A program made the position numbers and the translations under genes. Below are positions 3,737 to 12,103 of a DNA stretch of 64,000 nt, in pieces. The notes under the pieces are model-generated. The model was not told the DNA's origin, did no database searches, and saw only the letters and a program-made list of their open reading frames with translations. Positions within the stretch are counted from its first letter, which is position 1. The number at the start of each line of letters is the position of its first letter. The DNA is from Paenibacillus sp. MBLB1832 (GTDB lineage Bacteria; Bacillota; Bacilli; Paenibacillales; NBRC-103111): NCBI RefSeq assembly GCF_032271945.1, contig NZ_CP130319.1, positions 1,941,001 to 2,005,000 on the forward strand, in the 5' to 3' direction.

Positions 3737-4696
3737 TCAGAAGGCGCGCGGTTCCCGCGCGCGCCCCTGTGCGTCTCGAGCGACGCACAGGTCAAAATCA
3801 AACGTATCCCCTGCGCTCAGGGGATACCCCATGCCTAGCTGGCCGTGGGCCTGCTCGTTGGCGATAATCAGTACCTGATTATCGCCAACGACATGCCCTT
3901 GTCCAGCCCGAATCAAGATCGCCGTGTTCTCGTCCACGCCGATCCCGTACCGGCTGTTCAGCGAGCGAACAGCCAAGGGCAGCCGCACTTCCCGGCTTCG
4001 CTCGCGGAAGTGCGTATCCACGCAAGCATTAAGCTCGCTTGCGAAGCCAAAGCCCTTCATGCAGCCGCCGGCATCGGGCTGCCCCTCGACGACGAGCGTC
4101 GCGCTGGCAATCGGCTTTCGTACTAACTCCAACCCTGCACGATAACCGTTCAGGGTTCCCTCCCCATACGTCCACGTACCTTGGATGGCCGCACCCGCAC
4201 TGGACCCCCCAATTACCCCTCCGCGATGATAAACCTCGCGGACTGCCTGGAGCAGAGGGGTGTCCTCGCCTTCATCGGTAAGAAGGCAACGCGCATGCTT
4301 AGCCTGATCCCCGCCGTTTAGCCAAACCGCTTGCACATTGGCGAGCTGCTCGATGTTTTCATCATCATAAGCAGCCCGCTGATAGTTATCAATGGCGATT
4401 GGAATGAACAGCGGTTCAAAGCCATACTTCCGAAACAGCTTGCCATAGCCCGAAAAACCGTCATCATCTACATGATAGGCAAGGCTTGCGGCCCGCAGGC
4501 TTGGAGCAGCCGAGCAGAACACAGCAATTTGCGGTCTTTGGTTTGCTTTCGTTGGATGCTCTGCGCCTATGCTAGACAAACCGCCTCCCACTGCGGCATC
4601 GTAAAGCGCGCCCCAAACGGCTTTGTTGTCGTCCAATAAGTGGCCTCCTCCAAGGAGGATACTGCCTGATCTTATATGTTTCATAGCATCGTCCAT
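3737..4696 (-). CDS. cphB: Cyanophycinase (peptidase S51)
   Basis: Serine peptidase that splits cyanophycin (poly-Asp with Arg side chains) into beta-Asp-Arg dipeptides. The nucleophile elbow GGSSAGA places the catalytic Ser at about 166; WLNGGDQ precedes it and GIGVDENTA follows, in family order. At 319 residues it is somewhat longer than classical intracellular CphB, and it has no signal peptide. It is the last gene of an M20-arginase-cyanophycinase operon, starting 1 bp after the arginase stop, so it is probably translationally coupled; a second ATG lies at codon 5. The last 300 bp consist largely of consecutive inverted repeats. The family is clear; the physiological substrate is inferred from family and neighbours. 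Confidence 0.85.
   Translation of the reverse strand: MDDAMKHIRSGSILLGGGHLLDDNKAVWGALYDAAVGGGLSSIGAEHPTKANQRPQIAVFCSAAPSLRAASLAYHVDDDGFSGYGKLFRKYGFEPLFIPIAIDNYQRAAYDDENIEQLANVQAVWLNGGDQAKHARCLLTDEGEDTPLLQAVREVYHRGGVIGGSSAGAAIQGTWTYGEGTLNGYRAGLELVRKPIASATLVVEGQPDAGGCMKGFGFASELNACVDTHFRERSREVRLPLAVRSLNSRYGIGVDENTAILIRAGQGHVVGDNQVLIIANEQAHGQLGMGYPLSAGDTFDFDLCVARDAQGRAREPRAF
3743..4043. repeat. Chain of inverted repeats inside the cyanophycinase 3' end
   Basis: Consecutive, mutually different inverted repeats with short loops. Perfect arms: 3744-3751/3755-3762 (8 bp), 3766-3775/3782-3791 (10 bp), 3804-3813/3818-3827 (10 bp), 3855-3871/3875-3891 (17 bp, 3-base loop), 3952-3959/3967-3974 (8 bp), 3984-3992/4006-4014 (9 bp) and 4021-4027/4037-4043 (7 bp). 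Arms with one mismatch: 3837-3844/3848-3855 and 3917-3926/3935-3944. The reading frame stays open through all of them. Confidence 0.9.
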
Positions 4697-4697
4697 C

Positions 4698-5615
4698 TTA
4701 TAAAATTTGCTTTCCTAACAAAGAGCTAATTAAGCCGACAGCTAATTGGGAGGTTTTATTATTCACATCGAGCAGTGGATTGACTTCTACGAATTCAGCG
4801 GAAGTGACAATACCGGCTTCATGCAGCATTTCTACAGCAAGATGGGCTTCACGGAAATGCAGTCCGCCATTCACCGCGGTACCTGTTCCTGGCGCTTCGT
4901 TCGGATCCAATGAATCGACGTCGTAGCTAACGTGCAGGCCATCCGTGCGGTCTTTGAGGTAATCAATGGCTTCCTGCATCACATGTGCCATTCCTTTGCG
5001 GTCGATATCATACATGGTAAAACATTTAATACCCAGTGATCGAATAAGCTTTTTCTCCCCTTCATCCAGGGAACGACAGCCGATAAGGACAATATTCTCA
5101 GGCTTCAATTTTGGCTGTAAGCCTTTCATATTCGTCAGCAACGGATGTCCAATGCCTAAACTAACAGCGAGTGACATACCGTGAATGTTGCCTGAGGGAC
5201 TTGTATCTGCTGTGTTTAGATCGGAATGCGCATCGATCCAAATGACCCCTAAATTCGTGTAATGTGAGGAAAGCCCAGCAAGTGTGCCAATAGCGATGCT
5301 ATGATCGCCGCCAATGATCAGCGGGAAATCGCCTCGTTGGGCGGCTTGAGAAACTTGTTCTGATAGTCGAGTGTTGATCTCTATAACCTCTGCCAGATAA
5401 TTCAGATTGGTAATATCTTGTTCGGCATCTATAGCTGTTGCGGTTACTTCGCCTAAGCTGATGTCCGTTATGGAATCGATGGTCAAATCCATCTGCTGGA
5501 TACTACGAATTAAGCCCGCTTGCATGATGGACTTGGGGCCTTGGCTGGCACCGCGACGACCTGCCCCTAGATCAAAGGGAACGGTAATAGCTGCGATTTT
5601 CTGTTGAATGCTCAT
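4698..5615 (-). CDS. rocF: Arginase
   Basis: Manganese enzyme hydrolysing L-arginine to L-ornithine and urea in the cytoplasm. It has the normal length (305 residues) and all six metal ligands in family motifs: GGDHS (H105), DAHSD (D128, H130, D132) and SYDVDSLDP (D232, D234). The substrate-loop motif SGNIHG is also present. The start ATG shares a base with the stop of the M20 gene (TAATG) and has a strong GGAGGAG site, so the pair is co-translated. Agmatinase is the main alternative but fits less well. Between a peptidase and a cyanophycinase, its likely job is to use arginine released from dipeptides. Confidence 0.92.
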   Translation of the reverse strand: MSIQQKIAAITVPFDLGAGRRGASQGPKSIMQAGLIRSIQQMDLTIDSITDISLGEVTATAIDAEQDITNLNYLAEVIEINTRLSEQVSQAAQRGDFPLIIGGDHSIAIGTLAGLSSHYTNLGVIWIDAHSDLNTADTSPSGNIHGMSLAVSLGIGHPLLTNMKGLQPKLKPENIVLIGCRSLDEGEKKLIRSLGIKCFTMYDIDRKGMAHVMQEAIDYLKDRTDGLHVSYDVDSLDPNEAPGTGTAVNGGLHFREAHLAVEMLHEAGIVTSAEFVEVNPLLDVNNKTSQLAVGLISSLLGKQIL

Positions 5616-6802
5616 TAGATCTCCTCCTTAAGTGTGGTTATCGTTGCAAGGAACTCGTTACGAATCTCAAGCAATATATCTGGATTGCTCAAAAGATCAT
5701 ATCCAGTCCATGCGAGTGACTTGGCACCTAACAAAAGAGCCTGCATGCCATCCTCGCTCCCAGCTGCCTCTTTGAATTCAATGGTGTGACCGCCATAGGG
5801 GCTATTGGGGATTTGGATATAGGGATGTATGGCGGCTGTCCGTTGACTCACATTCCCAATATCAATGGAACCGTGGTCTAGTCCGTGATGGATCTGTGTG
5901 GGATCCACACCGAGCTTAATCAGATTTTGAACGAAAGCTTCAGATAAAGCTTCATTGGTAATTAGATTATCATATCCGAGCTCATAATTAGATATCTGTA
6001 ATTGCGTCCCTGTCGCAAGCGCGGCTGCGCGTGCGCAGTCTTTGACCTTTTCAACCGTGGTCGCGAGTGTGCTCTTCGTGCGAGTTCGCACATAAAATTG
6101 CGCCTGTCCGTGGTCGGGAACGATATTCGCAGCAGTTCCTCCTTGCGTGATAATGCCGTGGATGCGGACATCAGATGAAAGATGCTGGCGAAGGGCATTG
6201 ATGGCGTTGAACGATAGAATAACCGCATCCAGCGCATTAATACCATCTTGAGGTCTTGCCGCAGCATGGGCTGTTTTTCCGATAAAGTCAAACTGGACAG
6301 CTTCCATGGCCATGGATACACCACTTCGCTCATAGAATTGAGAAGGATGCGCCATGAGGGCAGCATCGACGCCATCGAAGAGACCTTGCTCCGCCATCGT
6401 TACTTTCCCGCCGCTGGTTTCTTCCGCGGGAGTACCAAAAACAATGACGGTACCTCCGAATTGATCAACAGCTTTCTGTAACGCGATTGCAGCGGTTACG
6501 CTCATCACACCAATGAGATTATGTCCACACGCATGTCCAATCTCAGGCAGTGCATCATACTCGGCTAAATAAGCAATGGTCGGTCCAGGAAGTGAAGAGG
6601 CATATATGGCTTGAAAGGCAGTCGGTAAGCCGGCTGTGCCAATCTCAACGTGAAATCCATAAGACTTTAATAATTGAGTGAGCAGCTCGCACGCTTTAAA
6701 TTCTTGGTGTCCGAGCTCTGGATTTTCCCAAATCGTTCGGGAGGCATGAATCCAGATGTCTTTATTTGTTTCAATAAATGAAGCTATGCTTTCCTTTGTC
6801 AT
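5615..6802 (-). CDS. M20-family metal-dependent amidohydrolase/dipeptidase
   Basis: Predicted cytoplasmic zinc/manganese hydrolase of the M20D (aminoacylase/AbgB-like) group, which cleaves amide bonds of N-acyl amino acids or dipeptides. At 395 residues it is full length. Metal-site motifs are EYDALPEIGHACGHN (C92 and H94 likely ligands) and TPAEETSGGK (E127/E128, catalytic base and ligand), followed by the small lid domain and a return to the catalytic domain. It is first in the operon with arginase and cyanophycinase, under an exact sigma-54 promoter. Context suggests beta-Asp-Arg dipeptides as substrate, in place of the isoaspartyl dipeptidase absent here; that is inference. An N-acyl-amino-acid or indole-amide hydrolase remains possible. 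Confidence 0.82.
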   Translation of the reverse strand: MTKESIASFIETNKDIWIHASRTIWENPELGHQEFKACELLTQLLKSYGFHVEIGTAGLPTAFQAIYASSLPGPTIAYLAEYDALPEIGHACGHNLIGVMSVTAAIALQKAVDQFGGTVIVFGTPAEETSGGKVTMAEQGLFDGVDAALMAHPSQFYERSGVSMAMEAVQFDFIGKTAHAAARPQDGINALDAVILSFNAINALRQHLSSDVRIHGIITQGGTAANIVPDHGQAQFYVRTRTKSTLATTVEKVKDCARAAALATGTQLQISNYELGYDNLITNEALSEAFVQNLIKLGVDPTQIHHGLDHGSIDIGNVSQRTAAIHPYIQIPNSPYGGHTIEFKEAAGSEDGMQALLLGAKSLAWTGYDLLSNPDILLEIRNEFLATITTLKEEI

Positions 6803-6859
6803 GCATTTTTCCTTCTTTCTGTAGGCAAATGAGGGAGGGGACTGCTCTATACATTCCCT

Positions 6860-6875
6860 AGCAAAAAGCGTGCCA
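6860..6875 (-). promoter_or_regulatory. Sigma-54 promoter of the M20-arginase-cyanophycinase operon
   Basis: On the minus strand the sequence reads TGGCAC, GCTTT, TTGCT: the consensus -24/-12 element with the required 12-bp step from GG to GC. Transcription would start near 6850, about 48 bp before the M20 start codon. Confidence 0.85.
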
Positions 6876-6910
6876 GAAGGAACTTGTGTTTTTTTATTTA
6901 TTTGCGATGT

Positions 6911-6959
6911 TCTTTAATGGTGGTTGCTCACTATTAACAACCAATAATCACCATAAAGA
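6911..6959. promoter_or_regulatory. Inverted repeat, candidate enhancer site for a sigma-54 activator
   Basis: TCTTTAATGGTG and CACCATAAAGA are complementary apart from one extra A. The centre is about 85 bp upstream of the predicted minus-strand start and about 135 bp upstream of the plus-strand one, in the range where sigma-54 activators bind. Confidence 0.4.
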
Positions 6960-7043
6960 GGCTATTCCATCTACGTGGAGATTTCATACGATGGAGAATG
7001 AATCTTTCAAGTAATTCTGCCTTCTTATCGCGATCCACGTTGT

Positions 7044-7059
7044 TGGCATCGTTTTTGCT
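7044..7059 (+). promoter_or_regulatory. Sigma-54 promoter of the malic enzyme-rpoN operon
   Basis: TGGCAT, CGTTT, TTGCT matches the -24/-12 consensus except for one base, with correct GG-to-GC spacing. Transcription would start near 7070, ahead of the AAGGAGG site and the ATG at 7112. Confidence 0.75.
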
Positions 7060-7111
7060 TAGAAGTAGTTAAGGCTATCCTTGCCTACATCTAAGGAGGA
7101 ATCGAGATAAA

Positions 7112-8542
7112 ATGGAAAAGTCACGGACAACGAACTATAGGGGAAATAGTGTTATTATTCGGTTAGAAATGAAGGTCGACCGCATGGCCTTCGGTGAAGT
7201 CGTTACTTCCTTGGCAGCGGTTGGCGGCGATATCACAGCGATCGATATCATTAGTAATGGCGGAGGCGTTACCGTTAGGGATATTACCGTCAATATGCCG
7301 GATTCCGTTACTGCGACAGACTTGACCGATGCTTTGAAAAAAACGGCTGGCGTCAGAGTCGTTCATATCTCAGATCGTACGTTCCTACTGCATCTAGGCG
7401 GGAAGATTTCCGTTATCCCCAAAACACCGATCCAGAACCGGGATGATTTATCACGTGTGTACACGCCGGATGTAGCGAGAGTCAGTATGGCGATTTATGA
7501 GGATCCCAATAAAGCTTTTAGTCTTACGATCAAGCGTAACATGGTTGCTGTCATTTCAGATGGCAGTGCGGTTCTAGGACTTGGCAATATTGGACCTAGA
7601 GCGGCTATGCCTGTTATGGAAGGAAAAGCGATGCTTTTTAAACAACTAGGAGATGTTGATGCGTTCCCGATTTGTTTGGAGACCCAGGATACGGAAGAAA
7701 TTATCACCACCATCAAACATATTTCAACAGCCTTCGGAGGCATCAATTTGGAGGATATTTCGTCTCCGCGGTGTTTTGAAATTGAAGAGAGACTCCGTAA
7801 GGAACTCGATATTCCAGTCTTTCATGATGATCAGCATGGGACGGCCGTCGTGGTCTATGCGGGTTTAATTAACGCACTGAAACTAGCGAAGAAATCGATT
7901 CACGATGTGCGTGTTGTTGTTGCTGGGATTGGCGCAGCAGGCATCGCTGTCAGTAAAATTTTACTAGCAGCAGGGGTGAAGGATTTGGTGGGGGTAGACG
8001 TCGAAGGAATACTTATCCGCACGCAAACCTATGCGAATCCTATGAAACAGTGGTATGCTGAACATACGAATCCATTCTTACGTGAGGGAAGCTTACAGGA
8101 TGCTTTAATGGGTGCTGATGTGTTTGTCGGTGTTTCTGCAGGTGGTATTTTGAAAAGGGAACATGTACAAAGTATGGCAGAGGATCCAATCATCTTTGCA
8201 ATGGCCAATCCTACGCCGGAAATTATTCCTGATCTCATCGAAGATATTGTTGCGGTCGTAGCGACTGGCCGTTCTGATTATCCGAATCAGATTAATAATG
8301 TGTTATGCTTTCCAGGGATGTTCCGAGGCGCACTGGATTGCCGTGCATCAGATATCAATGAAGAGATGAAGCTTGCAGCTGCGGAAGCCATCGCTTCCAT
8401 TGTCACTGCGGATGAGCTGAGTAAACAATATATTATACCGAGTGTTTTTAATGATCAGGTTGTCAAAAGAGTACGCGATCGCGTCGTACAGGCAGCTATT
8501 GCTACAGGAATAGCGAGACGAATTCCGAGGGAATTCCGCTAA
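7112..8542 (+). CDS. NAD(P)-dependent malic enzyme with N-terminal ACT-like domain
   Basis: Oxidative decarboxylation of malate to pyruvate and CO2. Residues about 10-90 look like an ACT regulatory domain; the malic-enzyme catalytic and Rossmann domains follow. Visible landmarks are LGLGNIGPRAAMPVMEGKA, FHDDQHGTAVV (metal-binding Asp pair) and VVVAGIGAAGIAVSKI (nucleotide-binding Gly motif). The length of 476 residues fits the small bacterial type with an ACT extension. Cofactor preference cannot be read reliably. The near-consensus sigma-54 promoter upstream and rpoN 49 bp downstream with no terminator suggest one operon. It would draw fumarate-derived malate from aspartate breakdown towards pyruvate. 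Confidence 0.9.
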   Translation: MEKSRTTNYRGNSVIIRLEMKVDRMAFGEVVTSLAAVGGDITAIDIISNGGGVTVRDITVNMPDSVTATDLTDALKKTAGVRVVHISDRTFLLHLGGKISVIPKTPIQNRDDLSRVYTPDVARVSMAIYEDPNKAFSLTIKRNMVAVISDGSAVLGLGNIGPRAAMPVMEGKAMLFKQLGDVDAFPICLETQDTEEIITTIKHISTAFGGINLEDISSPRCFEIEERLRKELDIPVFHDDQHGTAVVVYAGLINALKLAKKSIHDVRVVVAGIGAAGIAVSKILLAAGVKDLVGVDVEGILIRTQTYANPMKQWYAEHTNPFLREGSLQDALMGADVFVGVSAGGILKREHVQSMAEDPIIFAMANPTPEIIPDLIEDIVAVVATGRSDYPNQINNVLCFPGMFRGALDCRASDINEEMKLAAAEAIASIVTADELSKQYIIPSVFNDQVVKRVRDRVVQAAIATGIARRIPREFR

Positions 8543-8591
8543 TTCTTCAACTAGAGTCCCTACCCACCCGACACAAAGGAGGATGAGCGTG

Positions 8592-9905
8592 ATGTCCATG
8601 AGCATGCAGCAGAAACAGTCGCAGCAGGTCAAATTAGCGATGACACCGGAATTGAGGCAATCTATTCATATTTTGCAGCTATCCGGGTATGAGCTGAATC
8701 AGTTCTTGCTGGAACAGTCCGTAGAAAATCCGATACTTGAAGTGGAAGAGTCCCCTTATTTGTATCGTCATATACGTTCCACTGGTTCTATGGATGCTTC
8801 ACAGACAGATCCGCTGCTTCTCCTTCGGGCGCATGAGCAGTCGCTTCAAGACTATGTATGTTCACAGTTGCGAGTCCAAAAACAACTGACGACGAAGGTG
8901 CGTAAATTTGCTATCTTTCTCGCGGGGAATCTGGATGAGAAGGGGTATCTCAGTCTGAAACTGGAGGAATGCTGTGACATTCTGGGAGAGACCATGGAGG
9001 TTGCCTTAGAGGCGCTTTCAGCACTGCAAGCGCTGGATCCTGCAGGTATTGGTGCTCGAGATGTTCGAGAATGCTTGCTTATCCAAATTCGGAAGGATAG
9101 TCGGGCTTGTTCAGGCGCTTTGGCCTGTGTAGAACATTACTTGCCCCAGCTTGCTCAAGGGAAATATAAAGAGGTCGGAGTGAAGCTGAAGCGATCAGAG
9201 CAGCAAATTGCGGAGATTCATTCCTATATCAAAACATTAAATCCATGGCCTGGAGGGTTGTACCCCTCCTCAGTTCAGCCGGCTTATATTATTCCCGATG
9301 CCTATATTCGCAGGGATCCCAACGGGTTTTCCATTCAGGTGAATACGAAGTATACGCCGCGTGTTTCGATGAATCCCGACTATACACAATGGGTGAATGA
9401 CAGGCAGGCAGATGCCTCCATGTATCTCAAGGATAAATTTAAATCAGCCAGCTGGCTTATCAAAAGTTTAGAACAAAGGAATGTCACACTGCATCGTGTA
9501 CTTCAAGTATTGATTGATGAACAATCGACCTTCTTACATATGGGGTTGGAGCACCTCAGGCCCTTGAATCTTAAGGCTGTCGCTGAAAAGTTAGGGCTGC
9601 ATGAATCCACGATTTCTCGTGCCGTCCAAAATAAATACATTCAAACCCCGCAAGGGTTAATTGAAATGAAATTTCTTTTCTCAACGGGACTTCAGACGCC
9701 GCAAGGCAACATGGTTTCCATTTCTATGGTGAAACATAAAATGAAAGAAATTGTGTCGCAAGAGTTGAAAACAAATCCCTACTCGGACCAGCAAATATCA
9801 GAATTTCTTGTTGCACAGGGAGTTCCCATTTCGCGAAGAACTGTTGCTAAATATCGAGAGGAGCTGTCTATTCCGGTGGCCTCGATGCGTAAGCAAAGGG
9901 TGTAA
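8592..9905 (+). CDS. rpoN: RNA polymerase sigma-54 factor
   Basis: Alternative sigma factor (SigL of Bacillus) that reads -24/-12 promoters and needs an ATP-driven activator. Region I is Gln/Leu-rich at the N-terminus (LRQSIHILQLSGYELNQF), the core-binding and helix-turn-helix parts follow (LHESTISRAVQNKY), and the C-terminal RpoN box reads SRRTVAKYREELSIP. It is full length at about 437 residues. Start choice: AAAGGAGG at 8575-8582 directly abuts the in-frame ATG at 8583, so the ATG at 8592 (spacing 9) or GTG at 8589 is more likely. Co-transcription from a sigma-54 promoter would give positive feedback. No activator gene lies in the window. Confidence 0.95.
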   Translation: MSMSMQQKQSQQVKLAMTPELRQSIHILQLSGYELNQFLLEQSVENPILEVEESPYLYRHIRSTGSMDASQTDPLLLLRAHEQSLQDYVCSQLRVQKQLTTKVRKFAIFLAGNLDEKGYLSLKLEECCDILGETMEVALEALSALQALDPAGIGARDVRECLLIQIRKDSRACSGALACVEHYLPQLAQGKYKEVGVKLKRSEQQIAEIHSYIKTLNPWPGGLYPSSVQPAYIIPDAYIRRDPNGFSIQVNTKYTPRVSMNPDYTQWVNDRQADASMYLKDKFKSASWLIKSLEQRNVTLHRVLQVLIDEQSTFLHMGLEHLRPLNLKAVAEKLGLHESTISRAVQNKYIQTPQGLIEMKFLFSTGLQTPQGNMVSISMVKHKMKEIVSQELKTNPYSDQQISEFLVAQGVPISRRTVAKYREELSIPVASMRKQRV

Positions 9906-9915
9906 GTGGAGGCAA

Positions 9916-9984
9916 GTTGTAATAGGGGCTGTCAAGAAAGTCATGTGAGATGACTTTCTTGACAGCCCCTATACGTGTTACAAC
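9916..9984. terminator. Very long palindrome between convergent rpoN and chemoreceptor genes
   Basis: A perfect 23-bp arm pair (9922-9944 and 9950-9972) flanks a 5-base loop. An outer pair, GTTGTAA/TTACAAC (9916-9922, 9978-9984), is separated by a small bulge. The outer arm includes the stop codon of the chemoreceptor. There is no T tract on either side, so it is an atypical bidirectional terminator or mRNA 3'-end stabiliser. Confidence 0.7.
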
Positions 9985-12077
9985 TTAAACTGGGCTAACT
10001 GATCGTTTAGATTTCCAGCTAGCTTCTCCAAGTCATGAGAGAAGCCGACGAGCCGCTCGCTTACATGGAGCTGCTCTTGACTTAAGGAGGATACCTGCTC
10101 GGAGGTGGCAGCAGCTTCCTGCGAGATCGCACTGACCGTGGACATGGTCATAAAGAGCTCCTGCTGGACCTTCTCCAGCTCGGCATTCGAGGTTGTACAG
10201 GTCCGGAGATGGGCCATCAGCTCATTCATTTGCTCGTGGATGTGCCGGAACAGCTGCTCAGCCTGTTTGACGGAAGTGAACTGTTTCGCAAAGACAGGTG
10301 AGACGCGTGTTAGTGCGGTCACAGAGTGATCCACATCACTCCGAATGGCCATTGTGATGTTGGCGACTTGGTCGATAGAGTCGCGTGATTGATCAGCGAG
10401 CTTGCGAATTTCCTCGGCAACAACCGCGAATCCGCGTCCAGCGGTACCTGCGCGTGCTGCTTCAATGGAGGCATTCAGTGACAGGATGACGGTTTGCTTG
10501 GCGATTTGATTCAGAACATCGACAATCTTGTCTATGGATGAGGTACTGGTGGATAACCGGTGAATATTAGTGGTCATCACATTGGTTAAGCTTTCCAAAT
10601 CGGAGCTCGTGGCATTGAGTTCACTCATGAAGCTTGTACCTTGTTGGCTAACGTGTTGGGCACTTGCAGCGGTTTGGCTCATTTGCTCATTGGCAAGTGT
10701 GACTCGCTGCATGCGCTCATTCATATCCTGTGCAAGCAAATTGCCGGTTTCTGCTTCCGTTGCAAGGCCAGTTGAGCCATGAGCAATGTTCTCATTGGCC
10801 ATGGCAATTTCGCTGGCCGTATGCGTCGTTTGGTTTGACGCATGAAGGAGCGTCTCAGCGGTACTTAGTACTTCGGCTGTTGATTGTTTTGTTTGACCGA
10901 CTAAACGGTGGATTTGAGCCATCATTTGATTAAAACTGGCACCTAATTGCGCGATCTCGTCTCTTCCTTTGGTGAAAGTGGTTTGGAGCTGTAGATTGCC
11001 GGATTCGCCTAATTGCATGAGATCCCGCAAGTGAACGAGTGGACGGACGATCGTTCTAAACACCCAGAAACCAACGAGTGAAGCAGCGATGATTGCCAGT
11101 AAGACCATCAGCCAGGTTAAGTGCAGCATGTCTTTCGTCTCGCTTACGAGCTCTTCGACTGGCGTTGAGGCCACGACCGTCCAAGGGACGGTTTGCATTT
11201 TTTTGCTAATATACAAGGTGTCCTGTTCGGATTGAATGGTGGCATCCTTGCTTGTTGTATGAGGCAAATAGAAGGTTGTTCCCAATTGATCCAGGTTGCC
11301 TGAACGAATAAGGTGTCCCTGCTCATCTATAATGACGACGGGATGCTGGTCGCCTAATGTGAACTTCTGAAGCGACTCATCCAAGGAGCTAAGCTTTAGT
11401 TCAATAAGCAGAATAGCGCTAACCACCGTGTTATTGCCGCTATCCAATACGCGTCCAAGCGCAAAGCTTGGTTCGCCGGCAGCATAATATCCTGTTTTCA
11501 ACGTAGGTAACCAAAGCGGTGTCCCCCCTGCGGTGACAATACGTTGGAACCAATCCATTTTAGAAATAGCAGAACTCGTAGGAGCTGCTTTCGTCGCATC
11601 ATAAGAGAGAAGTGACTCGCCAGTTTGAGAATTGAAGAGCGTCATGTTGCTCAATGTCGGCTTATCAATGACAAGTGCAGTCAATTTATCGGTCAACAGA
11701 CGCTTGGCATTTTGCTTATCTAGGGCAGATGCTTTGGGGTTCGTTAAAGCCGTGACGCCTGTCATGAAATCCGTATCGAGCAAGAGTTGATTACTCATCG
11801 CATCAAATTCGGAGAGTTGGGCCTCGGTTTTGTCACTTAGCAGCTGAATGGTGTCTTGAGTGGCGGTGGCCACTTTATTCTCAATTAGTTTGCGAGATTG
11901 GGCGTAACTGGATAAGCCAACAATAAGAACGAGGGCTAGCGAACAACCTGCGATGGCAAGCAACAATTTGAAGCCGATAGAGCGAAATAGGGTGCGGCGA
12001 TGCACGATTGTTTGCGGTGGTTTGGATAAAATGGAGCCAGCATTACGGATTTCATGGATCCATGATGAAACTTTCAC
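9978..12077 (-). CDS. Methyl-accepting chemotaxis protein, full length, dCache-type sensor
   Basis: Transmembrane chemoreceptor of about 699 residues. A short cytoplasmic N-terminus leads to membrane helix 1 (about 35-55). An extracellular dCache-like sensor follows (about 60-320), then helix 2 (about 328-350), HAMP, and the signalling coiled coil with tip [31 protein letters not shown]. The GTG at 12086 overlaps the AGGAGGTGA ribosome site, so the GTG at 12077 (reading MKVSSWIHE) is the likely start. The ligand is unknown; dCache receptors commonly sense amino acids or other small solutes. It is separated from the gene upstream on the same strand by a clear terminator, so it has its own promoter. 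Confidence 0.92.
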
Positions 12078-12103
12078 GCGGTTCACCTCCTGAGTATGGT
12101 TTG

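Follow-up and report, generated by a model that had tools for sequence, protein, structure and literature searches.

Cyanophycin is a nitrogen-storage polymer of other microbes. A 2023 survey (PMC10206079) cites Ben Hania et al. for a locus that serves its utilisation and scavenging. According to that survey, IadA and IaaA do not account for Firmicutes, whose isoaspartyl dipeptidases are still undiscovered (PMC10206079). A further system that resembles the locus studied here comes from Rhizobium etli and Mesorhizobium loti, where NifA and sigma-54 drive a prxS-rpoN2 operon (PMC3538637).

We analysed a 64-kb stretch of the Paenibacillus sp. MBLB1832 genome (the window), in which two divergent operons flank an intergenic region (6803-7111) containing two perfect -24/-12 elements (Table 1). 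Both elements read TGGCAY-N5-TTGCT with a GG-to-GC spacing of 12, which confirms the back-to-back sigma-54 promoters proposed in a first-pass annotation of this DNA. Placing transcript starts about 12 nt past the GC, we predict starts near 6850 (minus) and 7070 (plus), with leaders of about 48 nt to the ATG at 6802 and about 41 nt to the ATG at 7112. Each ATG is preceded by a ribosome site, in line with the earlier view that the promoters stand at a sensible distance from one. In consensus (TGGCAY-N5-TTGCW), spacing of 12 and workable gene distance, both sites belong with sigma-54-dependent promoters, and the genome encodes both rpoN and a sigma-54 activator. The inverted repeat that the same annotation placed at 6911-6959 held up in part – an activator-type repeat does lie between the promoters, but it is imperfect, its 12-nt arms (6914-6925 and 6946-6957) being 83% complementary around a 20-nt spacer. 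The putative UAS that includes it lies about 85 bp upstream of one predicted start and 135 bp upstream of the other. We consider it fairly likely that both elements function as sigma-54 promoters and that their regulon serves the use of external cyanophycin or of beta-aspartyl dipeptides derived from it.

Table 1. Coordinates, within the window, of the divergent promoter pair and the genes around it.
Feature	Position	Strand	Basis or remark
Sigma-54 promoter -24/-12 TGGCACGCTTTTTGCT	6860-6875	minus	Exact consensus; heads the M20-arginase-S51 operon
Sigma-54 promoter -24/-12 TGGCATCGTTTTTGCT	7044-7059	plus	Exact consensus; heads the malic enzyme-rpoN operon
Predicted activator-binding region (UAS)	6908-6957	none	Inverted pair of TGGT/ACCA-type half-sites; inverted repeat and motif scan
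M20 family dipeptidase/amidohydrolase, first operon gene; candidate beta-Asp-Arg hydrolase	5615-6802	minus	Pfam/NCBIfam M20
Arginase	4698-5615	minus	TIGR01229 323.9 bits, cut-off 227.6
S51 cyanophycinase-like protein	3737-4696	minus	TIGR02069 87.5 bits, under equivalog cut-off 126.6; best PDB matches are cyanophycinases
Aspartate ammonia-lyase	1334-2761	plus	TIGR00839 just above cut-off; gene order
Malic enzyme	7112-8542	plus	PF00390/PF03949
Second rpoN (sigma-54), 440 aa	ORF 8583-9905, start probably 8592	plus	TIGR02395 above cut-off; AID, CBD and DBD domains

A search of the 5.85 Mb genome with the strict pattern TGGCAYNNNNNTTGCW returned 28 matches, compared with 10 for a reversed control pattern. 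At this density about 0.03 pairs of strict sites less than 200 bp apart would be expected, and fewer in divergent order; 7 of the 28 matches fall inside the 19 kb around the promoter pair, where arithmetic from the genome count predicts about 0.1. By position, 20 strict matches lie within ORFs, 2 are intergenic without a following ORF, and 6 are intergenic close before a same-strand gene. These six precede a secreted S51 gene with RTX repeats, rocD, a dipeptide ABC transporter (dpp) operon, the M20 operon, malic enzyme-rpoN, and a second secreted S51 gene – all of them fitting one pathway. With relaxed sigma-54 patterns we examined 27 new loci, a set that excludes 18 of the relaxed sites, and none of the 27 held a convincing further promoter. 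At strict-pattern stringency, the predicted sigma-54 regulon that is recognisable in this genome is one pathway.

Chance matches to the pattern would be in keeping with the 10 genomic hits of the control and with the location of most strict matches inside genes, but they would not explain why sites are clustered, positioned and oriented before related genes, nor why the promoters recur elsewhere. A conservation search, suggested by the first-pass annotation, recovered malic enzyme-rpoN behind a sigma-54 promoter in a genome of a different family (G025), with TGGCACAGATCTTGCT about 75 bp before the malic enzyme gene (L101), and an M20 gene with its own sigma-54 promoter in both G025 and Halalkalibacter. 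We regard chance as an extremely improbable source of these sites.

The genes behind the promoters are those that a cyanophycin scavenger might need. The arginase of the minus-strand operon, already recognised in the first reading, scores well clear of its family cut-off (Table 1), and an asparaginase is also among the promoter-linked pathway genes. The aspartate ammonia-lyase gene (aspA) ends a same-strand gene run that starts, upstream of the window, with the dipeptide ABC transporter. A chemoreceptor-type (MCP) gene (24-1322) sits within this run and may link chemotaxis to cyanophycin products; another MCP gene (9978-12086) follows rpoN, and in G025 one stands beside ansA-dpp (L099). Three S51 proteins score 62-88 bits against TIGR02069, below the cut-off of 126.6, so that the assignment of cyanophycin as substrate rests on gene context. 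No signal peptide was seen in the S51 protein of the window. The first secreted S51 protein (L007:6513-8048) closes with calcium-binding RTX repeats, the kind of tail that usually goes with type I secretion in Gram-negative bacteria, and the gene for the second lies 1 Mb away (G000:C1:2980763; L027:1572-2627) behind its own perfect sigma-54 promoter. No cyanophycin synthetase was recognised in the genome, the best match reaching 135 bits against a cut-off of 850, which makes scavenging likelier than storage; we conclude that the bacterium is probably a cyanophycin scavenger. Our literature search on sigma-54 control of cyanophycin use returned nothing relevant.

The M20 protein has HmrA and Xaa-Arg dipeptidase as its nearest solved structures, which fits cleavage before arginine. 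The transporter is clustered with the promoter-linked genes, and the M20 enzyme is a candidate, and only that, for the isoaspartyl dipeptidase that Firmicutes are missing. Close M20 relatives in two other genomes (G027 and G036) occupy unrelated gene contexts. The name CphZ was rejected for this gene, since M14-type enzymes make up the published family of cyanophycin dipeptide hydrolases (PMC10206079). Three loci of other Paenibacillus (L111, L112 and L113, near 10001-10130) carry arginase, aspA and rocD together at 79-90% identity. They have no sigma-54 sites, and ahead of arginase there is just a short stretch resembling M20; perhaps the M20 gene was lost or has diverged in these loci.

Most organisms have a single rpoN. 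This genome has two, the canonical copy lying at 1097193 and sharing 37% identity, over the aligned part, with the copy in the window. The latter starts 40 bp after the malic enzyme gene, across a gap that has a ribosome site and nothing resembling a terminator, and its product has all three sigma-54 domains – bearing out the claim that the plus-strand operon includes a sigma-54 gene with no intervening terminator. As in the prxS-rpoN2 arrangement, a sigma-54 promoter heads the operon in which the second rpoN lies. The malic enzyme has a paralogue elsewhere (1404233; 64% identical). A maximum-likelihood tree built from 43 RpoNs places the window sequence beside a glpX-adjacent rpoN from within the genus (97/89) and, one step further out, beside the malic enzyme-linked rpoN of G025 (94/85). 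A strict sigma-54 promoter stands at the operon head or directly before rpoN in 6 of the 8 members of this clade and in 0 of 13 in the canonical clade, and the two exceptions (L165 and L202) have apparently had the promoter-bearing stretch deleted. From these counts, sigma-54 control of the clade looks old. Paralogues of rpoN lie directly behind perfect sigma-54 promoters at L169, L174, L175 and L182 (same genus, glpX-adjacent) and also at L189, and in four same-genus genomes an rpoN of the window clade does so without a malic enzyme gene. More than one rpoN was present in 15 of the 27 rpoN-bearing genomes of the genus (the source genome included; a few copies are partial); a recent survey put the figure at about 5% of organisms (PMC12316311).

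The promoter at 7044-7059 could serve the malic enzyme only, rpoN being expressed mainly from a promoter of its own or processed separately, without a meaningful loop. That arrangement would call for a site such as the sigma-70-like one upstream of rpoN (8400-8429; 9 of 12), though sigma-70-like sites are as numerous as in shuffles. The short gap without a terminator, the conservation of the gene pair in G025 and the four genomes with a same-clade rpoN directly behind a sigma-54 promoter all count against it, and we think it unlikely. Since the second rpoN lies in the malic enzyme operon, induction would also raise sigma-54, and the regulon probably amplifies its own sigma-54 in a positive loop.

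Only two of the proteins that the genome encodes give strong scores with the sigma-54 activator domain. Our candidate activator is a 699-aa EBP with PAS and AAA domains and an intact GAFTGA; its C-terminus gives weak winged-helix matches, below cut-off. Its gene has the sigma-54 promoter of rocD on one side and that of dpp on the other, and is located 8-10 kb upstream of the window, about 15 kb from the promoter pair. The protein reaches no cut-off among the NCBIfam EBP families, its best match being PrdR-type NF041552 (379 bits against a cut-off of 795); the PAS and AAA core is common to both, whereas C-terminus and gene context differ. Among 300 genomes of the order, only the source genome and G025 (63% identity) encode a high-scoring EBP of this kind, which is absent from the other sampled genomes of the genus, while orthologues at 52-61% identity are scattered across other Bacilli. 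This distribution suggests that the gene was acquired by horizontal transfer.

The neighbours of the EBP orthologues are informative about its likely signal. Transporters of dpp type adjoin orthologues at seven loci (L149, L150, L152, L154 and L156-158), and IadA is another neighbour, above the TIGR01975 cut-off in 4 of 4 tested (L154, L159, L162 and L163). At L149 an AstE/AspA-type (M14-type) enzyme adjoins the EBP and a divergent operon encodes a cyanophycinase that passes the cut-off, and in Halalkalibacter alkalisediminis (L107) the orthologue's locus includes the M20 gene behind a sigma-54 promoter. Intergenic regions at these loci often have a sigma-54 site. That a single EBP family has isoaspartyl-dipeptidase candidates of three unrelated kinds next to it points to isoaspartyl dipeptides as signal or substrate. 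We also observed that an OppC-type permease (L007:14772-16316) has a bacterial Ig-like (Big_2) insertion in mid-protein, and that its counterparts at further EBP loci are of comparable length.

These neighbourhoods also bear on whether the regulon, though real, serves peptides other than cyanophycin that are isoaspartyl or contain arginine, such as those arising from damaged protein. The S51 scores under the cyanophycinase cut-off, the promiscuous-type IadA at several EBP loci and the general contexts of the M20 relatives would suit such substrates. Two secreted S51 proteins under sigma-54, the presence of both arginase and aspartase, and the cut-off-passing cyanophycinase at L149 argue for cyanophycin instead; we judge the other peptides a possible but rather doubtful target.

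For the operator, a motif was trained only on promoters from other genomes that adjoin an EBP orthologue, and was then used to search 84 kb of the source genome. The motif – tandem half-sites like AACCAATAA-AACCA – is low in information content. Its top match in the 84 kb lies ahead of dpp (L007:11889), and between the divergent promoters it scores 12.2 bits at 6939 (rank 3) and 10.6 bits at 6908 (rank 12); when 6876-7043 was shuffled 2000 times with dinucleotides preserved, 9 shuffles reached the observed maximum, a moderate significance. There is a 12.4-bit match upstream of the second secreted S51 gene, no match in the rocD upstream region, and none better than shuffles at the promoter of the first secreted S51 gene (cphE). 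Sharing a motif with the promoters of EBP orthologues, the inverted repeat between the promoters is a probable EBP site.

The first-pass annotation had instead favoured RocR acting with sigma-54 on arginine catabolism, which would make the divergent pair a roc-type, arginine-inducible locus. Arginase and rocD are indeed among the sigma-54 genes, the RocR-like gene it proposed looking for exists (an EBP with a Fis-type HTH, L002, G000:C1:2170262), and in G025 such a gene adjoins sigma-54-rocD, arginase and malic enzyme-rpoN. However, the RocR-like gene lies 222 kb from the promoter pair rather than near it, and the motif of the other EBP has its match in 6876-7043, which contains no recognisable RocR-type operator. 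A roc regulon is also not known to include genes for dipeptide import or secreted S51 proteins. In the RocR-like protein GAFSGS replaces GAFTGA, which also weighs against this activator, though the T-to-S change occurs in active EBPs (PMC3162934). We set RocR aside on distance, operator and gene content, and regard a roc-type locus as quite improbable. RocR and plain arginine catabolism are probably the wrong reading: the pathway looks like cyanophycin or beta-Asp-Arg use with arginine breakdown as one branch, and the 699-aa EBP, encoded among the sigma-54 promoters, is the likely activator of the divergent pair.

From the sites, gene content, clustering, conservation and shared motif, we infer the following scheme. 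The 699-aa EBP would sense the dipeptide or a breakdown product, bind the ACCATTA/TGGTT repeats that lie between the promoters as well as ahead of further target operons, and open the sigma-54 polymerase. Secreted S51 enzymes would cut the polymer, the ABC transporter would import beta-Asp-Arg and the M20 enzyme would split it; arginase and ornithine aminotransferase would then process arginine and aspartase aspartate, with malic enzyme draining C4 acids. Canonical RpoN at basal level would start the response, and inducer-bound EBP would fire all targets, including malic enzyme-rpoN, whose new RpoN would raise output. Points against this scheme are the weak activator motif, the S51 scores, the contexts of the M20 relatives, a possible extra sigma-A promoter for rpoN, and the position of the malic enzyme-rpoN locus of G025, which stands beside the RocR-like gene and not beside the EBP. 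The combined proposal – a pathway-owned, self-amplifying second sigma-54 in Bacillota whose rpoN clade is repeatedly kept behind sigma-54 promoters, together with the M20 enzyme as the undiscovered Firmicutes beta-Asp-Arg hydrolase – is a tentative one, with somewhat more against it than for it.

To our knowledge, a second sigma-54 inside the regulon that it serves is known only from rhizobial symbiosis, and this seems to be a Gram-positive bacterium that has one. It thereby becomes possible to test what duplicated rpoN genes do in Bacillota, and cyanophycin scavenging gains a candidate dedicated regulator. The closest precedent for the proposed loop is the prxS-rpoN2 wiring. Both place a second rpoN in a sigma-54-promoter operon with an activator site (predicted here), serve a single pathway (again a prediction here) and leave the canonical rpoN elsewhere. 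The rhizobial operon belongs to nitrogen fixation in Alphaproteobacteria and has NifA and another operon partner, whereas the one described here is found in Bacillota, with malic enzyme as partner, a catabolic pathway and an EBP that has no name. The SigL/RocR arginine regulon of Bacillus shares sigma-54 control of arginase- and rocD-type genes and a PAS-type EBP; the present system differs in its EBP, which is without a clear Fis-type HTH, in its operator motif, in the additional genes for polymer cleavage and dipeptide use, and in having a sigma-54 gene inside the regulon. Comparison with the cyanophycin scavenging locus of Ben Hania et al., so far as the citing survey describes it, shows cyanophycinase-like genes, a transporter and a dipeptidase (here a candidate) clustered in both, with no synthetase (PMC10206079). 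Here, M20 replaces IadA/IaaA – a concrete candidate for the Firmicutes isoaspartyl dipeptidase called undiscovered (PMC10206079) – and a full downstream pathway and predicted sigma-54 control are added.
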